NCBI GenBank assembly: GCA_015055905.1
Contig: SVHI01000014.1
Span: 1-34,193, forward strand
Source of the DNA: Clostridiales bacterium
Lineage (GTDB): Bacteria > Bacillota > Clostridia > Christensenellales > UBA1242
Direction: 5' to 3'
DNA: 34,193 nt
Of this stretch, positions 2,293-28,260 are shown piece after piece. Below the pieces are notes generated by a model. That model did no database searches, was not told the origin of the DNA, and saw only the letters and a list, made by a program, of their open reading frames with translations. Numbering within the stretch: the stretch's first letter is position 1; each line of letters opens with the position of its first letter. Made by a program: the position numbers and the translations under genes.

Positions 2293-3241
2293 CATTGGCA
2301 TTATCGGCTATGGAAATCTTGGAAAATCAGTTGAGCAAATCATACTTTCAAAAAACGAATATAATCTCGTTGCAATCTTTTCAAGAAGGACAGTCAAGTC
2401 ACGCTATAACTCACTTATAGATAATTATGAAAATATAACAAAATATAAATCACATATTGATGTTATGTTGCTCTGCGGAGGTTCAAAAAATGATTTGCCA
2501 CCACAAACTGCTGAGGCCCTCAAGTTTTTTGATTGCATCAACGCATTCGATACCCACGCAAAAATTTGCGGTGAATTAACTAGACTTGGTCGCATCGCTA
2601 AAAAAACAAACCATAGACTAATTATGTGCACAGGATGGGACCCTGGCGTGTTTAGTGTTGTTCGTGGGCTTTTTTACGCAATCTCTAACCGCAAGCCAAC
2701 AACTTTTTGGGGAAAGGGCATAAGTATGGGGCACAGTGACGCAATTCGTCAGGTGGCGGGAGTCAAAGACGCTGTTCAATTCACAATACCAAACCCTAAC
2801 GCAATAAGGCTTGTTAGAAAAAATATGATTGACACAGAACTTCCACTTCACTTTAGAGATTGCTATGTGGTTTGTGACAAACCAAAACAAAAACAGATTG
2901 AGCGAACCATTAGGCAAATGCCAAACTATTTCAAAGGTCAACCAACAAGTGTGACCTATGTGTCACATAATACTATCAATAGCCTCAAAAAAAGAATGCG
3001 ACACAAAGGTCAAATTATAACATCTTTCAAAACAATTCAAGGCACAAAAACAGCTGCCGAATTTAAACTTTCAATGGAGTCAAATTCAAATCTCACCGCT
3101 GCAATTATGTGCGCATATATAAAAGCAATAGGCAACCTAAAACTCCACAAAGTCAGCGGGGCATACACTTGCTTAGATGTTCCAATCTCGTTTTTATTTT
3201 CTAAAGAAGAACGACAAAAAGTTATAAATGAACTATGCTAG
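2282..3241 (+). CDS. ddh: meso-diaminopimelate D-dehydrogenase
   Basis: Ddh reductively aminates tetrahydrodipicolinate with NADPH and ammonia to meso-DAP in one step, bypassing the succinylase/acetylase branches. At 319 residues it is the usual length. It carries the N-terminal Rossmann motif GYGNLGKS (9-16), then TGWDPGVFSVVRGLF and GKGISMGHSDAIRQVAGV, which are characteristic of the family. The start overlaps the 3' end of dapA. The ddh route is common in some Clostridia and Bacteroidetes and absent in many other Firmicutes, so it helps place the organism. The meso-DAP would feed peptidoglycan and lysine synthesis. Confidence 0.95.
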   Translation: MKLNIGIIGYGNLGKSVEQIILSKNEYNLVAIFSRRTVKSRYNSLIDNYENITKYKSHIDVMLLCGGSKNDLPPQTAEALKFFDCINAFDTHAKICGELTRLGRIAKKTNHRLIMCTGWDPGVFSVVRGLFYAISNRKPTTFWGKGISMGHSDAIRQVAGVKDAVQFTIPNPNAIRLVRKNMIDTELPLHFRDCYVVCDKPKQKQIERTIRQMPNYFKGQPTSVTYVSHNTINSLKKRMRHKGQIITSFKTIQGTKTAAEFKLSMESNSNLTAAIMCAYIKAIGNLKLHKVSGAYTCLDVPISFLFSKEERQKVINELC

Positions 3242-8485: not shown

Positions 8486-9535
8486 TTCCGCTCTAAGCGA
8501 TACTGCATTTGATGCCTCACGACGTATTTTGTCAGACATAGCAGCATAGTGCTTCTTTGTAGTGTTAACATCACGATGTCCCAAAACATCGGCAACTATA
8601 TAAATGTCTTGTGTGGCTTGATAAAGCCTTGTGCCATAAGTTGAACGAAGTTTGTGAGGTGTGATATGTTTGAGTGGAGCAACGATTGTTGCATACTTTT
8701 TAACAAGTTTTTGAACCGCTCTTGTGGTTATACGCTTGTTTTGAAGTGAAACAAACAGAGCAGGCTCATTAACAAGTTGTGGGTTTTTGGCGCGCTCTTC
8801 AATCCAATAGAATAACGCAACTTTAACCTCATCACTGAAATACAAAATTACTTGGTTTCCACCTTTACGGGTAATTTTCATACCATTGATTTTAAAATCA
8901 ATATCTTCAACGTTTAAACCGACACATTCCGACACACGCAGACCAGTTCCAAGTAACAGCGTCATAATTGCAGTGTCACGAATTTTTGTATGCTTATGAA
9001 AGCCTTTTTCGTGGCCAGACAAGCCATAACCAGACTCAACAGTTCCCAAAAACTTATAAACTTCATCATCTTCAAACCTAATGATTGGCTTATCGTGAAG
9101 TTTTGGCATTTCAATTTTACTCGCAAGGTCAACTGAAATCATTTCTCGTCTAAAGTAATATTTAAAAAATGAACGAACAGCCGCAATTTTTCTGGCTTTT
9201 CCACGTTCGCCATTTGTCACAATCTCGCCGTCTTTTTTTTCATAAGATGTGAGATAACTCATATATCTTTCAAAGTGTGTTGAATGAAACTTTTCAAGGT
9301 CTTTAACTTCAAGTTCAAACATCGACTTTTTATCACGAAACAAGTTTGTTTCTGTTAACGCCCAGTTAAAAAATGTTCGCAGGTCATAAGCATAATTAAT
9401 TCTTGTGAGCGCGCTGGTCTTATTTTCAATTCCAGTAAAAAAATCTAACGCAAAATCAGGGAAGTCATAAAGAACTTCTCTTAGCCTTGCGGTCAGTTTT
9501 GTTCGCTGCTCATTGTAATAATCTTGCTTTTTCAT
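8483..9535 (-). CDS. xerS: XerS-like tyrosine recombinase
   Basis: This 350-residue tyrosine recombinase has the full catalytic set: Arg200 (GTGLRVSE), Lys224 (TRKGG), His294 and Arg297 (HKLRSTYGT), His320 (LGHRD) and the nucleophile Tyr330 (KKHYAA). The N-terminal SAM-like core-binding domain (about 25-135) carries DLRTFFNW and RKIAAVRSFFKYYF. It is about 50 residues longer than XerC/XerD and close to the 356 residues of streptococcal/lactococcal XerS, which it resembles in layout. XerS-type enzymes act alone on dif-like sites beside their gene to resolve chromosome dimers. No phage or transfer genes are near, so an integrase role is less likely. The ATG has no ribosome binding site; a consensus promoter ends 6 nt before it, which suggests a leaderless mRNA. 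The XerS subfamily label is inference. Confidence 0.85.
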   Translation of the reverse strand: MKKQDYYNEQRTKLTARLREVLYDFPDFALDFFTGIENKTSALTRINYAYDLRTFFNWALTETNLFRDKKSMFELEVKDLEKFHSTHFERYMSYLTSYEKKDGEIVTNGERGKARKIAAVRSFFKYYFRREMISVDLASKIEMPKLHDKPIIRFEDDEVYKFLGTVESGYGLSGHEKGFHKHTKIRDTAIMTLLLGTGLRVSECVGLNVEDIDFKINGMKITRKGGNQVILYFSDEVKVALFYWIEERAKNPQLVNEPALFVSLQNKRITTRAVQKLVKKYATIVAPLKHITPHKLRSTYGTRLYQATQDIYIVADVLGHRDVNTTKKHYAAMSDKIRREASNAVSLRAE

Positions 9536-9631: not shown

Positions 9632-10432
9632 ATGATTGCATTAAATGAACTAGTTAAAAATTATGACAACTTTGTTGATAGATATAAGTTAATGGGGAAG
9701 AAAGCCAAACTCGACTCTATTATTTTTCTTGAGAAAAAATTTACAAAATTGCAACTTGAAACAAACCAAGAACGTTCAAACTGCAATAAACTCTGCGGCA
9801 ATGTTGCTGAAAAACTTAGACGCGGTGAAAGCACCACGAGTTTAATTGATGAAATCAACTCGCTCGACAAAAAGATTAATTCGTCAACAGCAAAACTCAC
9901 TTCACTTTATAAAAAAATCAACAACAAACTCAAAAAACTCCCAAGTTATCCAAGAGAAGATAACGTTTTAAATATTCCAATAAAAACAACTCAAACAAAT
10001 CTTGGTGCAAAAGATTTTGTTAATGAAATCGCAAAAATTGCCGAAATTAGAGAGTTGGAAGAAACAACTCTAGACTTTCTCAAATCTCAAGAAAACTGCG
10101 TTTTTGAGGTAGAAAAACTGCCAACTATCATTGGTTTTAAAAACAAAATTTCAATTCTATCTTCAAAAGACGATGTGCTTAAAATTTATGACAAACTTAT
10201 TAATTTTTTAGAGCAAAACGCAAAACTTTTAATCAAAAAGTCAATCAAGCAAATGAAAAAAGAAAGCACAAGTGAATACAGAACTGTGCTGGCAGACAGG
10301 TCAGTGATTGACATTAGGCTAGTTGAAGAATATTATTCAAGAGAATACAGCCTAAAATATCACGACTCAAAAAAAGATATGTCTAGGTTTTTAAACCAAA
10401 TAGACATATTCATTTATTCAAAATCATTCTAA
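9632..10432 (+). CDS. Orphan protein resembling the seryl-tRNA synthetase N-terminal arm
   Basis: The first 125 or so of 266 residues follow the layout of the SerRS tRNA-binding domain: an initial ELVKNYDNFVDRYKLMG segment, a long helical hairpin with KLQLETNQERSNCNKLCG and a GEST turn followed by LIDEINSL, and the exit KLKKLPSYPRED, which mirrors the LPNxPHxxVP linker of SerRS. The rest (about 130-266) does not show class II motifs 2 and 3, so it is not a working synthetase. It might be a degenerate core or an unrelated domain. The long arm of SerRS binds the variable arm of tRNA-Ser, so an RNA-binding role is conceivable. The gene is divergent from the recombinase gene with 96 bp between them, lacks a ribosome binding site and has its own terminator. 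Confidence 0.7.
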   Translation: MIALNELVKNYDNFVDRYKLMGKKAKLDSIIFLEKKFTKLQLETNQERSNCNKLCGNVAEKLRRGESTTSLIDEINSLDKKINSSTAKLTSLYKKINNKLKKLPSYPREDNVLNIPIKTTQTNLGAKDFVNEIAKIAEIRELEETTLDFLKSQENCVFEVEKLPTIIGFKNKISILSSKDDVLKIYDKLINFLEQNAKLLIKKSIKQMKKESTSEYRTVLADRSVIDIRLVEEYYSREYSLKYHDSKKDMSRFLNQIDIFIYSKSF

Positions 10433-10493: not shown

Positions 10494-11105
10494 TTATTTC
10501 TTTGTGGTTGTTTTCTTTGCTGTTGTTTTAGCAGCTGGTTTCTTTGTAGCAGCGGCTTTTGGAGCAGCTTTTGGAGCAGCTTTTGGGGCAGCTGGTTTTT
10601 CTTCAACAATTGTTTGTTCTGTTTTGATTGTGTTTACAAAGTTTGTTGCATTTTGGAAAGCATTTGTTCCACGGTTGAATGTAGCAACTTTCTCTTCAGC
10701 GGTGAGTGTCTTCTTTTCGCCTGAAACTTCAACAAAGTTATTAATTGCTTGTTTATCAACTGCTTTTTTTGTGTGTTGTTCAACTTCGTGATTAACAATA
10801 ACAGTAGATGAGTTTAATTCATCATTAGCAGCTTTGTTAACGTCTGTGATTTGATTTACAAAGTGAAGAACTGCATTGTCATCTTCATAAACGCGAGGTT
10901 CTTCAACTGGAGCCTCTTCAGGAAGGGCAACTTCGCCATCAACTCTTTCAACTCTGTCTTCAACTCTTTGAACATCTGTGCCGGTTTTCTTTCTTCTTAA
11001 GTTATACCAAATCAATAAACCAACTACAGCCAAAATTAAAACAATGTCCAAAACGATAATAGCAATCAAACTGCCATCAACTTTACATAAAAAGTTATTT
11101 AACAT
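10494..11105 (-). CDS. Single-pass membrane protein with a Lys/Ala/Pro-rich, histone H1-like tail
   Basis: The 203-residue protein starts with a short N-terminus, one hydrophobic helix (about 12-34) and the stop-transfer cluster RRKK, giving a cytoplasmic C-terminus. A polar acidic middle follows. The last 35 residues are three APKA repeats and then a tail of K, A, T and P only, like the H1-type tails of bacterial DNA-binding proteins. The sequence suggests a membrane anchor for nucleic acid or another anionic partner; no family is recognised. The ribosome binding site is AGAGAGGTGG, with TATAAT about 15 nt further upstream. It lies between the recombinase gene and the dif-like repeat, which makes a role in local DNA organisation worth testing, but that is speculation. 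Confidence 0.75.
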   Translation of the reverse strand: MLNNFLCKVDGSLIAIIVLDIVLILAVVGLLIWYNLRRKKTGTDVQRVEDRVERVDGEVALPEEAPVEEPRVYEDDNAVLHFVNQITDVNKAANDELNSSTVIVNHEVEQHTKKAVDKQAINNFVEVSGEKKTLTAEEKVATFNRGTNAFQNATNFVNTIKTEQTIVEEKPAAPKAAPKAAPKAAATKKPAAKTTAKKTTTKK

Positions 11106-11242
11106 AATCCACCTCTCTATATTATAACAATTTTATTATATCACATAAAAAAAATAATAAATAATAAAATTTTACACTTTTTCAAACTTTTTAAAAAATT
11201 TTTTGATTATTTAGGTGTTATTTCACACATAATTAGCAAATT

Positions 11243-11378
11243 AAAAAATCGGGTGAGTCATAATGACGATTTCTCACACAAAATTACAAAAACTTACCGC
11301 TAAATAATTTAAAGATTCTGTCTCACAGCGTCTCACAAAATCATTTCAAATTTTAAATGGAAACTCACCCGATTTTTT
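11243..11378 (+). repeat. Perfect 16-bp inverted repeat enclosing 104 nt, T-run at the end; possible small RNA
   Basis: AAAAAATCGGGTGAGT (11243-11258) is the exact reverse complement of 11363-11378, which runs on into further T residues. A transcript would close its own 5' and 3' ends with a 16-bp stem. CATAAT at 11228-11233 could be a -10 giving a start near 11240, with TTGATT 19 bp upstream as a poor -35. The stem is a direct observation; an RNA gene is inference. Confidence 0.45.
11315..11337 (+). repeat. 23-bp direct repeat, copy 1
   Basis: Identical to 11550-11572. It begins ATTCTGTCTCAC and holds two GTCTCAC heptamers 3 bp apart. Confidence 0.85.
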
Positions 11379-11549
11379 TTTCAATGATTTTTCTGGGGGA
11401 GTCACAAAAATTTCGCCCTAGTGTTATTCAGCAAATTAGAAACACTATTCAATCTCAAAATATCTCTTCAGCAAACACTATATGGAATTTTGGTTCACAC
11501 AGTTTATCGTGAAACAATTTGGTTGGATAATGGGTCAACAATTTTTTTC

Positions 11550-11572
11550 ATTCTGTCTCACAGCGTCTCACA
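11550..11572 (+). repeat. 23-bp direct repeat, copy 2
   Basis: Identical to 11315-11337, 235 bp away in the same orientation. It is followed by another CACAGCGTC unit. Confidence 0.85.
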
Positions 11573-11815
11573 CAGCGTCACGCAAAATAAATTCCCAGTA
11601 TCTCACATCACATAATACCACAGCGTGTCTCACAACACATAGCACCACAAACCATAAATAAAATCACACAAACGAAAATTAAAAATCAAGCCAAAGCGCG
11701 TCACAGCAAAACTACAAGCCAAATCAAAAACATTCAAATTCAAACTGGCTCACAAAACCAGATTCAAAAACCGACTGTTAATAACTGTCAACAACCCCAC
11801 TTCCACCCCTAGCAT

Positions 11816-11845
11816 CTATTCGCAAAAGCTGTGTTTTGCGAATAG
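11816..11845. promoter_or_regulatory. dif: dif-like site: perfect 12-6-12 inverted repeat
   Basis: The arms CTATTCGCAAAA (11816-11827) and TTTTGCGAATAG (11834-11845) flank a 6-bp centre GCTGTG. No T-run follows, so it is not a terminator. Arms of 11-13 bp with a 6-8 bp centre are the standard geometry of tyrosine recombinase core sites such as dif. It lies 2.3 kb from the recombinase gene, and 15 bp including the right arm recur in that gene's promoter. The structure is seen directly; function as the dif site is inference. Confidence 0.65.
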
Positions 11846-12033
11846 TTTGCACGAAGGTTTTTCACAATTCCCGAATTTATCAACATTCGCGGCTGTTAAT
11901 AATTTTGAATTTTTGACACTCCATTTTTCAAAAAAGACCTCTTTTTCTCTTCCACCCCACCGACAGTCTCTCTCTAGTGTTTAAAATTTTAGTCTCAAAT
12001 CGTGTTAAAATTTTTAAAAATTCAAAGTCAATT

Positions 12034-12143
12034 TTAATAAATCAAACACTAAAATTTAATCTAATTTTGATAATAAACTAGGCAAGTTTGATTAGGTGAG
12101 AAAATTAAATTCTATAAAAAACAGGTGAGAATTGATTTATTAA
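12034..12143. repeat. AT-rich 12-bp inverted repeat
   Basis: TTAATAAATCAA (12034-12045) is the perfect reverse complement of 12132-12143, with 86 bp between. Inside and beside it AGGTGAGAA occurs twice. In DNA this AT-rich the repeat may have no function. Confidence 0.4.
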
Positions 12144-12230
12144 ACACTTCAAATTTTTCTCAAAAATTTTTAAACTCACCCATTCACTCCCCTCAAAATT
12201 AGTTTTATACTAACCTACTAAATTTTTAAA

Positions 12231-12258
12231 TTGACAAAATTTTAAATTGAACTATACT
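12231..12258 (+). promoter_or_regulatory. Promoter of trmL
   Basis: TTGACA (12231-12236) and TATACT (12253-12258) are 16 bp apart. The start near 12265 gives a leader of about 34 nt with AAGGAG before the ATG. Confidence 0.7.
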
Positions 12259-12298
12259 TATAAATTGTTAAAACTACCCTATCACTCAAGGAGCAAAA

Positions 12299-12802
12299 AT
12301 GATTAATATTGTTTTAGTTGAACCAGAGATTCCACAAAACTCTGGAAACATTGTTAGAACTTGTGCAGCCATTGGTGCAAAACTTTATATGGTTAAACCA
12401 CTTGGCTTTATTATGGACGACAAACATTTCAAACGTGCTGGAATGGACTACTTAGATTTCGCAAGCGTTTCAGTTGTTGATTCATTCCAAGAAATTTTGG
12501 ACGCAAACAAAAATGCCACCTTTTATTATGCTAGCACAAAATCTCAAAAAAATTACTGTGACGTGACATATCCAGATGGCTGTTTTATTGTTTTTGGAAA
12601 AGAAAGCTATGGGCTTAGCGAAAACATATTGAAAAACAACTATGACAAATGCGTTCGTATTCCAATGAGTTCGAAAGCAAGAAGCCTCAACCTTTCAAAC
12701 TCTGTTGCAATTATTGCCTATGAGGCAATGCGTCAACAAAATTTTGAATCTCTTCAAGAATATGGCCAACTCACTGGAAGAATTGAAAATGACAACTATT
12801 AA
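12299..12802 (+). CDS. trmL: tRNA (cytidine/uridine-34 2'-O)-methyltransferase, SPOUT family
   Basis: TrmL uses S-adenosylmethionine to methylate the wobble ribose of leucine tRNAs. The 167-residue length is typical. The N-terminus IVLVEPEIPQNSGNIVRTC and the C-terminal knot motifs, FGKESYGLSE and IPMSSKARSLNLSNSVAI, are diagnostic for the YibK/CspR branch of the SpoU-TrmD superfamily. The trefoil knot forms around the last of these. AAGGAG lies 6 nt before the ATG. The gene is monocistronic, on plus among mostly minus genes, and converges on the metallopeptidase gene with a shared hairpin. Confidence 0.95.
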   Translation: MINIVLVEPEIPQNSGNIVRTCAAIGAKLYMVKPLGFIMDDKHFKRAGMDYLDFASVSVVDSFQEILDANKNATFYYASTKSQKNYCDVTYPDGCFIVFGKESYGLSENILKNNYDKCVRIPMSSKARSLNLSNSVAIIAYEAMRQQNFESLQEYGQLTGRIENDNY

Positions 12803-12803
12803 A

Positions 12804-12833
12804 AAAAGACCTCTATCTAAAGAGGTCTTTTTT
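12804..12833. terminator. Bidirectional terminator between trmL and the YgjP-type gene
   Basis: The arms AAAAGACCTCT (12804-12814) and AGAGGTCTTTT (12821-12831) close a 6-nt loop. The stop codon of the minus gene lies in the loop. Confidence 0.85.
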
Positions 12834-13500
12834 CATACATTCCAAGCAAGAAACTATATTCTTTTATTTCTTTTTTCTGTTTTTCATATTCAGGCAAAAA
12901 CTTTTTCACAAGTGCCCAGAATTCTTTGCTATGATTCATTTCTTTTAAGTGACAAAGTTCGTGAACAATTATATAGTCAATAATTTTTGGCGGCAACATT
13001 ACCACACGCCAGTTCAAGTGAACCACTCCAAATGAGTTGCACGAACCCCAGCGTCCTTTGCTGTCGCTAAGTTTAAGCGATGATGACTTGAGTCTTATTC
13101 GCTCTTCAATAAATTCAAGCCTTTCACCTAAAACTTGTTTTGCTAGTTTTTTATACCAAGCTGTTAATGCTTTGATAATTTTTTCTTCTTCATATTTGAT
13201 TGGAATCAACATTTCAAACTTATTGTTTGTTTCAATAGATTTAACTTGTGATTTTATTGGTTTATACCTATTACCAAACAACAAGAAACTCTTTAAGGCG
13301 ATTACGTCCTCAAATTTCGCCTTATTTTCTTTCACAATCATAAGTTTTTCACGAATCCAACCCTGTTTTTCTTCAATAAATCGATTAATAACCTCATCTT
13401 TCATCGAAATTGGGGCTTTAACGATAATATTTCCGTCCTTCAAAACCGTAAGCGACAAAGTTTTTCGCTTAGACCTTTCAATATAATCTGGAACAATCAT
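12817..13500 (-). CDS. YgjP-type zinc metallopeptidase (DUF45/M48-like)
   Basis: This is a 227-residue soluble protein. The zinc site is HELCH at 180-184 with the third ligand His190 in NHSKEFW, and the preceding RWGSC (150-154) is the hallmark of the YgjP/SprT-like DUF45 family. The N-terminal half is a beta-rich domain of unknown role. The physiological substrate of the family is not established. The start is supported by AGGAGAA before the ATG. It stands alone, convergent with trmL. There is no signal peptide, so it acts in the cytoplasm. Confidence 0.88.
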   Translation of the reverse strand: MIVPDYIERSKRKTLSLTVLKDGNIIVKAPISMKDEVINRFIEEKQGWIREKLMIVKENKAKFEDVIALKSFLLFGNRYKPIKSQVKSIETNNKFEMLIPIKYEEEKIIKALTAWYKKLAKQVLGERLEFIEERIRLKSSSLKLSDSKGRWGSCNSFGVVHLNWRVVMLPPKIIDYIIVHELCHLKEMNHSKEFWALVKKFLPEYEKQKKEIKEYSFLLGMYEKRPL

Positions 13501-13716: not shown

Positions 13717-16203
13717 ATGCGTAATATTGATAGTGATTTAATCCGCGGAAACATTGATACCATTATTCTCAAGACTATGCTTGAAGAAGATAAGTATGGT
13801 TTGGATATTATCAAAGAAGTTGAACAACGTTCTAGCGGAACCTATGAACTTAAACAACCAACCCTTTACAGTTGTTTAAAACGTCTTGAAAACCAAGAAC
13901 TTATCACCTCTTATTGGCTTGATAGTGACATTGGTGGCAGACGCCATTATTATAAACTTACTGAAAAGGGTCGTGAATTTTACAACAAAAAACAAGAAGA
14001 ATGGGCTAAGTCAAAATTCATTATTGACAACCTTTTAAGTAACTATGATTATGAAGAATATCGCCTTGTAAAGAAAGATGAATATGACCAAATTCAACAA
14101 GACAAAGAAATGATTGCAAGCGGTGCATACAAATCACAAAGTGCGTCAAATTCAGCATTTGAAAGTGCTATGTCTGGCAATACTCTGTCTAACATAACAC
14201 CTGAAGAAACTGACGATGAACCAGTGGAAGAATCACTTGAAGAAGCTGACGAAACAACAACCATCGACGAACTCATTGAGGAAAATAAATCAGCCTATGA
14301 CGAAGAAGACGAATATTCAAAAATCGATGAAATTGTAAGCGAAGAAGATGATGAAGACAACAACTTCTCTGTTGATGGAACTGAATTAAACTTTTCAATG
14401 GACGAACATTTTAATGATGACCACGAACACGATGAAGATTTTGAAACCACTCAGCCAGAAGATTTTGATGAAACCGAAGAAGAATTAAACACTGAACATC
14501 TTGATTTCTTTTCAAATAATGAAGAAACCGAAGAAGAAACCGATGACTCACCTGTTTATTATTCTAGCCAAGAAGTTGAGCCTGAGGAAGAAACAGAACC
14601 AACTATTAGTTATCCTCAAGCAGACCAAACAAACAATGAACTTAATATTTTGAGAAGTTTGCATAGCCAAGAAGATGAAGAAATCAACACTTATTATGGC
14701 GACAAATCTTCTTATGTTAATCATTTAAACAAAGATGTTGAAACTGAACAACAAAGTTTGCTTGATGCAAACCTCTATAACACTGTTAATGAGGTTGACA
14801 ATTCTATCAACAATTTCTCTGAAACAATCTCAAGACTCAACAATTTCAATAGCTCAAGAGTTGATGCTGAACCTGAAAACAATACAGAAGAAAGCGAAGA
14901 TGAAGACTTTGAAACCCACGAAAATTCAGACTTTAGAGATGAATTTAACCAAACAGACTCACCTGAATGGATTGAAACTGAAGAGACTGAACAACCAGAG
15001 GTTGACGAACTTGACGAACTCAAGTCTTTAAACCCACATTCTTCAACTGGTTTCTTCAAAAGTTTTGATGACACAGACTACTCAAAAACTTCAACAAAAG
15101 AAATCATTGATAGCATTAATGATGATGAACCTGACTATGACTACTTAGAAACAGACTCATCTGATGCAAGTTTTGAAAATGACAAAAAATTTGATGCATA
15201 CGAAGAATATTTATTCGGCGCAAACACCATTGAAAACGACTATAATACTGGCGATGACGAAAACGACTTCACTCCTCCAAACTATGAAGAGACTGAAGAA
15301 GAAACTGAAGAATTAACCTTCAATTTCGGCGGAAACACAACCGACAAACAAGAAGTTTGCAACATTGTTTCAAAAGAAACTTCAACTGAAAGTTTTGAAG
15401 AACGCAATCCAGATTGTTTTGTTGACTTTAGAACAAACACAGAACATAGATATGAACAAACAAACTTCGACGATATTAACGAAATAATTTCTAATAACGC
15501 AACAAACACATTTAGTTATGACGATGCAATATTTGCACCAATGGAAGTTAAACCAACTCAAAATCAAAACTACAAACAAAAACTTTCAAACCTTTCAGCA
15601 TATTCAAAGGTTTCTATCGATGATGAACCTGAAGTTAGAAACAATGAAGAGGCTCTCAAAAAAGCAAAAGATATTTCAGAACTCACAAAAGAGTTTGAAG
15701 AAGAAGGCATTGTTGTTAAACAACACTACAAAAACTCAACAGCTAGAAACTTTGACAGGTCTTACCTTCTCACCAATAAAATCAATCTTGTGAAGAGTAT
15801 GATTTTATTCTTTGGTTATATTTTCTTGCTTTCAGGCATCTACATTGTGCTCAACAACACATCATTTAGTGAATCTTATGGATTCTCAATCAAATATTTC
15901 TTATACGGATTCATTCCTTTTGCAGTTATAATGCTTTGCAGAGTTGCAATGTTCCTTATAAATCCATATAAAAAATCCCCTGCAAGATACGCCTCAAGAA
16001 TTATGATGTTTATTTCAATAATAATCACCATTCAATTACTTTTAATCACATACTGCGTTAACTTGCAACTTGGATTCTACAGTTTCTCACAACTTGGCTA
16101 CAATCACTTATACTGGATAATTCCAACAATTATCTCATTTGCGCCAATCGCTGACAACCTTATTTATATGGCTTTGTATAACTCAAAGAATTTCCACGTA
16201 TAA
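13717..16203 (+). CDS. PadR-type winged-helix domain, long acidic linker and four TM helices in one protein
   Basis: This is an 828-residue protein of unusual build. Residues 3-110 are a PadR-family winged helix (NIDTIILKTMLEEDKYGLDI, QPTLYSCLKRLENQELI, then GGRRHYYKLTEKG). Residues about 130-640 are low-complexity and strongly acidic, rich in E, D, N, S and T, with no recognised domain. Residues about 655-680 are more basic. Residues 689-828 contain four hydrophobic segments (about 692-712, 718-745, 757-780 and 799-822). A DNA-binding domain tethered to the membrane by a 500-residue acidic, presumably disordered linker is the simplest reading. PadR proteins are normally soluble and about 110-180 residues long. 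AAAGGA lies 10 nt before the ATG. It could sense the membrane or hold DNA there; neither is shown. Confidence 0.88.
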   Translation: MRNIDSDLIRGNIDTIILKTMLEEDKYGLDIIKEVEQRSSGTYELKQPTLYSCLKRLENQELITSYWLDSDIGGRRHYYKLTEKGREFYNKKQEEWAKSKFIIDNLLSNYDYEEYRLVKKDEYDQIQQDKEMIASGAYKSQSASNSAFESAMSGNTLSNITPEETDDEPVEESLEEADETTTIDELIEENKSAYDEEDEYSKIDEIVSEEDDEDNNFSVDGTELNFSMDEHFNDDHEHDEDFETTQPEDFDETEEELNTEHLDFFSNNEETEEETDDSPVYYSSQEVEPEEETEPTISYPQADQTNNELNILRSLHSQEDEEINTYYGDKSSYVNHLNKDVETEQQSLLDANLYNTVNEVDNSINNFSETISRLNNFNSSRVDAEPENNTEESEDEDFETHENSDFRDEFNQTDSPEWIETEETEQPEVDELDELKSLNPHSSTGFFKSFDDTDYSKTSTKEIIDSINDDEPDYDYLETDSSDASFENDKKFDAYEEYLFGANTIENDYNTGDDENDFTPPNYEETEEETEELTFNFGGNTTDKQEVCNIVSKETSTESFEERNPDCFVDFRTNTEHRYEQTNFDDINEIISNNATNTFSYDDAIFAPMEVKPTQNQNYKQKLSNLSAYSKVSIDDEPEVRNNEEALKKAKDISELTKEFEEEGIVVKQHYKNSTARNFDRSYLLTNKINLVKSMILFFGYIFLLSGIYIVLNNTSFSESYGFSIKYFLYGFIPFAVIMLCRVAMFLINPYKKSPARYASRIMMFISIIITIQLLLITYCVNLQLGFYSFSQLGYNHLYWIIPTIISFAPIADNLIYMALYNSKNFHV

Positions 16204-16240: not shown

Positions 16241-16696
16241 TTATATATTTGCATTTTTCGCAATCTCACCCGTTGCAAGTGCATCACAACGATTGTTGTA
16301 TTCATTGTCTGCGTGACCTTTAACCTTGATAAATGTAACATTATGCACACCAAGAAGTTTGTCTAATTCTTGCCAAAGTTCAATGTTTTTCACAGGTTTT
16401 TTGTCTGAGCCCCTCCAGCCATTTGTTTTCCAGTTTTCAAGCCAGCCCTGATTTAGAGCATTAACAACATAGGCAGAGTCTGAATAAAGTTCAACATTGC
16501 AAGGCTTTTTTAGTTTTGTTAGTGCAACAATAACAGCGGTTAACTCCATTTTGTTGTTGGTCGTTTCAGGGTCAAAACCTGAAAACTCCTTCTTTTTTCC
16601 ATCGCACATCAAAATTGCGCCCCAACCTCCAGCACCTGGATTTCCTGAGCACGCCCCGTCTGTATAAATCGTTACATTAAAAGTTTTTTCTTCCAT
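16241..16696 (-). CDS. rnhA: Ribonuclease HI
   Basis: RNase HI removes RNA from RNA-DNA hybrids such as R-loops and primers. The 151-residue length is normal, and the DEDD catalytic residues are all present: Asp13 ([11 protein letters not shown]), Glu51 (NNKMELTA), Asp73 (YSDSAYV) and Asp138 (NNRCDALA), with His128 in KGHAD. There is no hybrid-binding N-terminal extension. GGAG precedes the ATG. It is monocistronic and convergent with the PadR-like gene. Confidence 0.96.
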
Positions 16697-16901: not shown

Positions 16902-16931
16902 ATTACAAAATTTCTTTTGAGGAGTGACCCT

Positions 16932-17201
16932 ATGGAAAAGATTAAGCACGGCGACGAAAATGGAATGTGTATTCTTGACGAAACATTAAAATGTGATGAT
17001 TGTGGCGAATGTGACAGATGTGACATTGACCCTAACAAAATTTGTGACAACTGCGGTGCTTGTCTTGACGCATACAACACAAACGAAAAGGGTTTTGTTG
17101 AAATTCCTATCGACAAAATTGATGTTTCTGGCGGAGACCCAACACTTGAAGATTTCTATGAATCACTTGGTCTTAATGATGAAGACGATGACGAAGAATA
17201 A
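16932..17201 (+). CDS. Small Cys-rich acidic protein, probable metal-binding
   Basis: This is an 89-residue protein. A TTG at 16917 is also in frame, but GAGGAG (16919-16924) lies 7 nt before the ATG at 16932 and fixes the start there. Eight cysteines fall at 13, 21, 24, 27, 30, 38, 41 and 44, in a CxxCxxCxxC run followed by CxxCxxC. Such spacing can bind zinc or iron-sulfur clusters; I cannot decide which. The C-terminus is very acidic (DEDDDEE). It starts 54 bp after tRNA-Trp and behind its terminator, so it may depend on readthrough or its own weak promoter. I do not recognise a named family. Confidence 0.75.
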   Translation: MEKIKHGDENGMCILDETLKCDDCGECDRCDIDPNKICDNCGACLDAYNTNEKGFVEIPIDKIDVSGGDPTLEDFYESLGLNDEDDDEE

Positions 17202-23723: not shown

Positions 23724-23811
23724 AGAGTTTATGTATAATCATAAGATATTTTGTCAAATTGTGAATTTTTCAGCATTTAGAAGTGTTATGTGTGACAATA
23801 TACCCCACACA

Positions 23812-27309: not shown

Positions 27310-28260
27310 TTATCCCTCCACCTTTAAAAATTCTTGAATTTCTTTTTCTACGAGTTCGATTGCTTTTTCAATAGGTTCATTAATGGCACAACCAGAGGCA
27401 TTTTTATGCCCACCGCCGCCAAACTTTGCCGCAACAACCGAACAATCATATTCAAATTTAGAGCGGAAAGAACAGTGAATTCCGTCCTCTCTTTCTTTTA
27501 ATATAACCGCAAGTTTATATCCACAATTAAGATATGTGTTTGGAAGATTGCCAATATTTTCACTTTGTGGAACACCAAACTTGTCAAAATCGTCTTTAGA
27601 AACGGTCATAATAACATACTTTAGTTCGTCATTAATCTTAGCATTTAACAGTGTGCTTGATGTGAGACGAACATTTGGAACATTGCGTTTATCAAAAAAC
27701 TCTGCATAAACTCGCCTAACTTCTGCGCCTTTTTCAAGTAAGTCCGCACAAACCTCAAATGTTTTGCTGTCAGTGTTAGAATTTCTAAACAACCCCGTGT
27801 CGCCACAAATTCCAAAATAAAGCGCAGTCGCAATGCTTGGTGTTATTTTAACCTTGAGTTTATTAATAACTTCATAAATCAAAATTGCACACGCACTATA
27901 AGTTTTAACTAGTTTCTTCTTAGAAAATTCTACACCATTTGCGTGGTGGTCAAGCTTTATTGTATTAGGAAAATTCACAAAGCTTTCTTCAAACTTGCCA
28001 AACATTGTGTTTGTTGGAACGTCAACCGAAACATAAAGGTCAAAGCCCTCTAATTCATCGGTATTATATCTGTCATAATACTCCAAAAACGCGTAATTTT
28101 CGCCATTTTCAACATCGCAGAACACACTAACTTGTTTGTTCATTGTCACCAGTGCTTCATATAAAGCAAGGGTCGAACCAATGGTGTCAGGGTCTGGATT
28201 TGAATGTGAAAACAAAGCAATCTTTTTGGAACGCTTTAAAAGTTTAATAATATCTCGCAT
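27310..28260 (-). CDS. nrnA: DHH/DHHA1 phosphoesterase, NrnA-type oligoribonuclease/pAp phosphatase
   Basis: NrnA degrades nanoRNAs and dephosphorylates pAp in Firmicutes that lack Orn. The 316-residue protein has motif I SHSNPDPDTIGS (His19, Asp23, Asp25), the DHH motif in KLDHHANG and the C-terminal GGGGHKNASGCAI that binds the substrate in DHHA1 domains. It is the first gene of an nrnA-fhs-protease operon. GGAGAA precedes the ATG and a good promoter is visible upstream. Confidence 0.92.
   Translation of the reverse strand: MRDIIKLLKRSKKIALFSHSNPDPDTIGSTLALYEALVTMNKQVSVFCDVENGENYAFLEYYDRYNTDELEGFDLYVSVDVPTNTMFGKFEESFVNFPNTIKLDHHANGVEFSKKKLVKTYSACAILIYEVINKLKVKITPSIATALYFGICGDTGLFRNSNTDSKTFEVCADLLEKGAEVRRVYAEFFDKRNVPNVRLTSSTLLNAKINDELKYVIMTVSKDDFDKFGVPQSENIGNLPNTYLNCGYKLAVILKEREDGIHCSFRSKFEYDCSVVAAKFGGGGHKNASGCAINEPIEKAIELVEKEIQEFLKVEG

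Follow-up and report, generated by a model that had tools for sequence, protein, structure and literature searches.

Within the window (the entire 34,193-nucleotide stretch of DNA analysed here, from a gut bacterium) one intact open reading frame encodes an 828-amino-acid protein, called here the PadR-TM protein, which joins a PadR winged helix, a long acidic linker and a membrane domain (Table 1). A YgjP-like metallopeptidase gene is its conserved divergent neighbour, and further upstream are a dif-like palindrome and the gene of an XerS-like recombinase. Most loci of relatives have a similar layout, with the metallopeptidase divergent from the PadR-TM gene, RNase HI after it and an XerS-like recombinase often close. 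None of these neighbours explains a membrane-tied PadR; it was the recombinase that led us to the replication terminus.

Table 1. Features of the window, with positions, strand and the basis of each assignment.
Feature	Positions	Strand	Basis
Candidate site TGACCTATGTGTCACATAATACT	2952..2974		Pattern search
XerS-like single tyrosine recombinase, 350 aa	8483..9535	-	NCBIfam XerS E 2.7e-55, below its cut-off; PF00589
Candidate site CGTATTTTGTCAGACATAGCAGC, 3' end of xer gene	8523..8545		Pattern search
Candidate site GGTGTTATTTCACACATAATTAG, 0.6 kb from dif	11214..11236		Pattern search
dif-like palindrome CTATTCGCAAAA-GCTGTG-TTTTGCGAATAG	11816..11845		Palindrome comparison with relatives
YgjP-like metallopeptidase, conserved divergent neighbour	12817..13500	-	PF01863 E 9.6e-57; synteny
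PadR-TM gene (PadR, acidic linker, four TM helices), 828 aa	13717..16203	+	Intact ORF, Pfam, relatives
PadR winged helix and dimerisation helix, aa 8-109	13738..14043	+	Pfam and AlphaFold2; closest solved relatives LmrR-type PadR
Acidic linker, predicted disordered, aa 113-612, net charge -130	14053..15552	+	AlphaFold2 pLDDT mostly <50; composition
Two overlapping candidate sites inside PadR-TM gene (aa ~150-161)	14164..14201		Pattern search
Short predicted helix within linker, aa 357-375	14785..14841	+	AlphaFold2, pLDDT ~74
Conserved linker motif YKxxLxxL, predicted helix aa 613-630	15553..15606	+	AlphaFold2; Y619 in 92% of rows
Four-helix membrane domain, aa 686-822, predicted N-in/C-in	15772..16182	+	AlphaFold2 pLDDT 91; positive-inside rule
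Candidate site AGTGTTATGTGTGACAATATACC	23782..23804		Pattern search
Candidate site GGTATTATATCTGTCATAATACT	28060..28082		Pattern search

Several other features of these neighbourhoods were noted. A 266-amino-acid protein encoded at 9632–10432, between the recombinase gene and dif and conserved in two congeners, has the N-terminal domain of seryl-tRNA synthetase only (PF02403). The window's RNase HI (16241–16696) is without the N-terminal extension of about 150 amino acids found in locus L078 (4914–5840) and other congeners; adjoining it is the gene of a small, acidic, Cys-rich protein of 94 amino acids (16917–17201) that has no Pfam match, and a similar small protein occupies this place in relatives. 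In several genera of the family to which the window belongs (loci L052, L043 and others), though not in its own genus, the PadR-TM gene is closely followed by an ABC-2 type exporter (ATPase and permease).

A PadR domain, an acidic linker and a membrane domain in one protein

The sequence-only reading had described a PadR domain, an extremely acidic region of about 500 residues and four TM helices in a single protein, a description that Pfam, composition and AlphaFold2 confirm. PF03551 matches residues 17–89 with E 2.2e-18 and 66.4 bits, where the cut-off is 27, and no other PadR in the window's 1.19-Mb genome scores above the Pfam cut-off. With 828 amino acids and a four-TM domain, the protein departs from the small, soluble build that is typical of, if not strictly defining for, the PadR family. 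The 500 residues of the linker include 61 D, 94 E, 17 K and 8 R, which gives its net charge. A full-length AlphaFold2 model built with 59 relatives is confident in the PadR and membrane domains and places two helical islands in the disordered linker (Table 1); the second bears the motif YKxxLxxL, which was found in 66 of 73 relatives and in 7% of shuffled linkers, and apart from which the linker sequence is unconserved. It had been suggested that linker length and charge might be kept while sequence is not. Acidity does persist (the linker is net negative in all 73 relatives with four predicted TM helices) and the sequence does diverge outside short motifs, but length varies widely (152–557 residues, as defined in one way).

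Three TM helices are clear from hydropathy, and AlphaFold2 adds a fourth, kinked one at residues 798–822 whose proline is conserved in 90% of relatives; modelled alone (pLDDT 91), the domain consists of four membrane helices preceded by a short helix. Positive charges average 3.3 before TM1, 4.5 in the TM2–TM3 loop and 1.9 in the tail, against 1.2 and 0.5 in the other two loops, and both ends of the protein are therefore predicted to be inside the cell, with the PadR domain located where the DNA is. Comparison of the membrane domain with the PDB gave no clear match (best Foldseek E 1.6, best Z 4.6 with a second structural aligner), which is not proof of a new fold. A descent of the membrane domain from the membrane partners of HAAS/PadR systems (DUF1129, DUF1700) was considered, and the matches to it were weak: DUF1129 is hit by 5 of 78 family members (best E 0.00097), and HAAS_TM/DUF1129 is almost absent from 60 genomes of the class.

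All genomes used were drafts or metagenome assemblies with genes called as longest open reading frames, and in 77 of 80 named relatives the PadR domain, the linker and 3–4 TM helices are in one frame; of the remaining three, a contig end truncates two, and L109 is short. This rules out an assembly fusion, which relatives with a stop between the HTH and the linker would have betrayed, as the origin of the architecture. The architecture recurs in congeners of the window, throughout the family and in further families of the order, and the isolate Pumilibacter intestinalis (L099) also carries the gene. A membrane-domain profile matches 137 of 248 genomes of this order and, among 398 genomes sampled elsewhere in the phylum, a single marginal one; the family seems limited to one clostridial order, which contig titles put near Pumilibacter and Christensenellaceae. 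The sequence-only reading knew of no described system built in this way, and we found none either in the open-access literature.

dif, the recombinase gene and the replication terminus

The dif-like palindrome of the window is placed between the recombinase gene and the PadR-TM gene, 1.9 kb upstream of the start of the latter. Single-recombinase Xer systems adjoin their dif site (PMC5357621), and the window has this arrangement in a putative XerS/dif module, with one recombinase gene beside the dif-like site. In 44 of 120 loci, which belong to several families and include some genomes twice, the PadR-TM gene has a dif-like site 0.2–4.3 kb upstream. In two relatives, G986 and G991, a dif-like palindrome TTCGTAAAA-6-TTTTACGAA occurs at 280,099 and 103,944, respectively. 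GC skew and gene strand flip at about 100–105 kb of G991 contig 1, where dif is at 103.9 kb and an exact copy of the candidate site described below at 103.4 kb; the flip in G986 is at about 275–285 kb, with dif at 280.1 kb and an exact site at 280.6 kb. The distance from dif to the nearest exact copy is about 0.5 kb or less in both. The PadR-TM gene of the congener G005 (166.8–169.0 kb) is itself at the skew flip, with dif at 172.0 kb.

Around dif in the window there is an ORF-free region of 1.2 kb (11100–12310) with many CTCACA/GTCTCACA repeats and a strong C bias, in which the 23-mers at 11315 and 11550 are identical. The CTCACA repeats were considered as binding sites and dropped, not being conserved in two congeners.

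Palindromic candidate sites at the gene's own promoter and around dif

A dyad count found TATGTNNNACATA in 23 of 71 regions upstream of the PadR-TM gene, where shuffled sequences give about 0.05. Exact copies number 27 in the 14.5 kb upstream of the gene and 15 in 829 kb elsewhere in the same loci, an enrichment of about 100-fold that fits the expectation for autoregulation, and this self-promoter site is the only one that recurs across families. Many relatives carry at the gene's own promoter a candidate palindromic operator of the ATGT/ACAT type, as is usual for PadR-type regulators; known PadR operators have the similar half-sites GTACTAT (cdPadR1) and ATGT/ACAT (LmrR) (PMC5050560). The core of the site is TATGTCWGACATA, with the extended half-site RGTRYTATGT, and the candidate sequences for binding by the PadR domain are TATGTCWGACATA and RGTRYTATGTNNNACATARYACY. 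Dyad counting in the window's own genus gave nothing convincing as a promoter palindrome; CTTGANNNTCAAG, which is conserved there, sits in the PadR coding sequence and was set aside as codon conservation.

Whole genomes hold 2 to 27 copies, above control in most, and three of them have 24, 27 and 23 sites where controls have 2, 3 and 2. In 40 segments around sites of two of these genomes TATGTCWGACATA occurs 35 times exactly and 16 times with one mismatch (permuted palindromes, 0 and 0.35); the segments were picked for exact sites, so the exact count arises by construction and the one-mismatch excess does not. Copies with two mismatches are at chance, and the site is accordingly sharply defined.

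The distribution of sites over the whole genome was followed in two draft genomes, G986 and G991. All 20 sites (≤1 mismatch) on the 393-kb contig of G991 are at 3–239 kb and none is further along, so that 20 of about 26 sites of that genome fall in 14% of it. Nine of the 11 sites in G986 are at 208–331 kb, or 8% of the genome, and the skew flip that G991 led us to predict inside this cluster was found there. Permuted-palindrome controls gave 0.64 and 0.72, against the 20 sites of G991 and the 9 of G986. Genes beside sites in G993 and G994 have orthologues near dif of both G986 and G991. Confinement of palindromic sites to the terminus region around dif, as in MatP/matS, was thus found in G986 and G991 and not in G005, where the gene is at the terminus, 400 kb showed no site excess and a palindrome search found none enriched. 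G987 and G989 have only 2 exact sites per genome, which is close to plain autoregulation, and in such relatives the sites could in fact be bound by a soluble PadR paralogue.

Sites lie inside genes in 5 of 9 and 10 of 20 cases in the two genomes. Many copies of the site are mid-way along long genes, which is unusual for promoter operators and counters a simple local regulon. About half lie outside genes, where 7–11% would be expected, and part of the sites may for this reason be regulatory. The PadR-TM protein might then be a membrane-bound one-component transcription regulator of CadC/ToxR layout, whose four TM helices sense a membrane or lipid signal and whose PadR domain governs, besides its own gene, a local regulon, for instance the divergent acyl-ACP thioesterase of other families. 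Such a role would agree with the sites in the self-promoter, with the normal function of PadR proteins as repressors and the LmrR-type fold, and with the presence of that thioesterase gene in 36 of 80 loci (L073–L152, position -1), where the intergenic region that it has in common with the PadR-TM gene often bears the palindrome; the window's genome has its acyl-ACP thioesterase elsewhere. However, the sites cluster at dif with half of them inside genes, the intergenic ones show no preference for gene starts (1 of 4 and 6 of 10 are near one, compared with 72–74% of random intergenic positions), and the divergent gene varies between families while the dif link and the architecture persist. We regard a regulator of this kind as unlikely, though deserving some weight.

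Terminus-clustered sites, a gene at the terminus and autoregulation are also features of the replication fork traps RTP/Ter (Bacillus) and Tus/Ter, which are soluble and have polar sites whose orientation is inverted across the terminus. A winged helix bound at the terminus could stop forks here too, and the apparent autoregulation and the position of gene and sites would suit it, but the best sites are symmetric and hence non-polar, and the asymmetric sites of G991 do not take opposite orientations on the two sides of dif (12 of 14 to the right and 3 of 5 to the left point the same way). A membrane anchor and a 500-residue linker would also be unexpected in a fork trap, and we judge this reading highly improbable.

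The sites are connected with the PadR-TM protein by promoter position and operator likeness, and on these grounds we infer that the protein binds them. Conceivably the dif-centred sites belong instead to another protein, a soluble PadR or a part of Xer/FtsK control, by which a PadR-TM gene that just happens to be near the terminus is regulated; the kind of link between protein and site would allow this, and several members of the order carry further small PadRs. Against it, the self-promoter site is the one site recurring across families, and the window's genome has sites with a single PadR above cut-off. We think this explanation decidedly doubtful.

The sites of the window itself were sought in two ways. 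A weight matrix made from other families finds three strong sites (control mean 0.04), and the extended half-site pattern gives five matches at ≤3 mismatches, where the control mean is 0.125 and none of 400 controls reaches five; the pattern was tuned on sites from the window and relatives, which makes this control somewhat generous. The congener G007 has four matches to the extended pattern at ≤2 mismatches, neither method found strong sites in G005, and other genera of the window's family gave only 2 strong matches in 327 kb. With sites in the window and G007 and none in G005, the site evidence is uneven within the window's genus.

A proposed terminus tether and its known counterparts

From the sequence alone the protein had been read as either a membrane-bound one-component regulator or a DNA–membrane tether. 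The adjacency to dif, the clustering of sites around it and the location of half of these inside genes favour a tether, and one of the replication terminus, while a regulatory side remains because many relatives have sites in the gene's own promoter region. Nothing in particular supports the accompanying idea that the linker is a DNA mimic. Our preferred interpretation, held with somewhat more belief than doubt, is that the PadR-TM protein is embedded in the membrane, binds specific sequences at the chromosome terminus and, similar to MatP/matS in its working but unrelated in sequence, probably ties the terminus region to the cell membrane. The cytoplasmic PadR dimer would bind the palindromic sites gathered around dif and the four-helix C-terminal domain would serve as membrane anchor; the linker, long and acidic, would permit the two ends to be far apart, and its negative charge should keep the linker itself off the DNA. 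YKxxLxxL may recruit a partner, perhaps of the division machinery, and the terminus would be held at the membrane or division site, as it is by MatP/matS in E. coli. The protein would also repress its own gene.

The chances seem to us evenly balanced that this is an undescribed class of chromosome-organising system, conserved across a clostridial order, in which a multi-pass membrane protein directly binds terminus sites and by its acidic linker moors Ter to the membrane or septum. If true, tying of the terminus to the envelope would have evolved independently with unrelated parts, and a family that is conserved throughout the order, and that can so far be recognised only as PadR regulators, would gain a role. 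A direct test is possible, since both the protein and the DNA site can be transferred to laboratory bacteria.

Among known systems, CadC and ToxR have a winged HTH, one TM helix and an extracytoplasmic sensor, and the PadR-TM protein has four TM helices with short loops and no outer domain. The PadR-s2 repressors LmrR and cdPadR1 have the same winged helix and dimer helix and similar operator half-sites but are soluble proteins of ~110–145 amino acids. The nucleoid occlusion proteins Noc and SlmA bind sequence-specifically at scattered chromosomal sites, and SlmA also binds lipid membranes (PMC7468209); however, SlmA sites are missing from Ter (PMC6538776), which reverses the pattern seen here, and folds and anchors differ. 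The nearest DNA-to-membrane link in Firmicutes that we found in the open-access literature is RocS of Streptococcus pneumoniae, which links chromosome and membrane by an N-terminal DNA-binding domain and a C-terminal membrane anchor (PMC11500499); a coiled coil and a C-terminal amphipathic helix take, in RocS, the place of the predicted disordered acidic linker and the four-helix multi-pass domain of the PadR-TM protein, and we found no report of terminus-specific sites for RocS in the open-access literature. We found no MatP-like terminus organiser of Firmicutes in the open-access literature.

The nearest working analogue is MatP/matS, which organises the Ter macrodomain of E. coli. Its 23 matS sites are found only in Ter, and MatP connects Ter with the divisome and makes contact with lipids too (PMC6538776). 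Interaction with ZapB and a midcell Ter are further marks of that system. The likeness is in the DNA, where copies of a short palindrome surround dif and are mostly limited to the terminus; the proteins differ, the one here having a PadR winged helix, a four-TM anchor integral to the membrane and a linker that is long and acidic. A Pfam search of the 828-amino-acid protein gave no MatP domain, its DNA-binding part being PadR. The PadR-TM protein is not a MatP, since fold and anchor differ, and it is in its working that the two systems would resemble each other.
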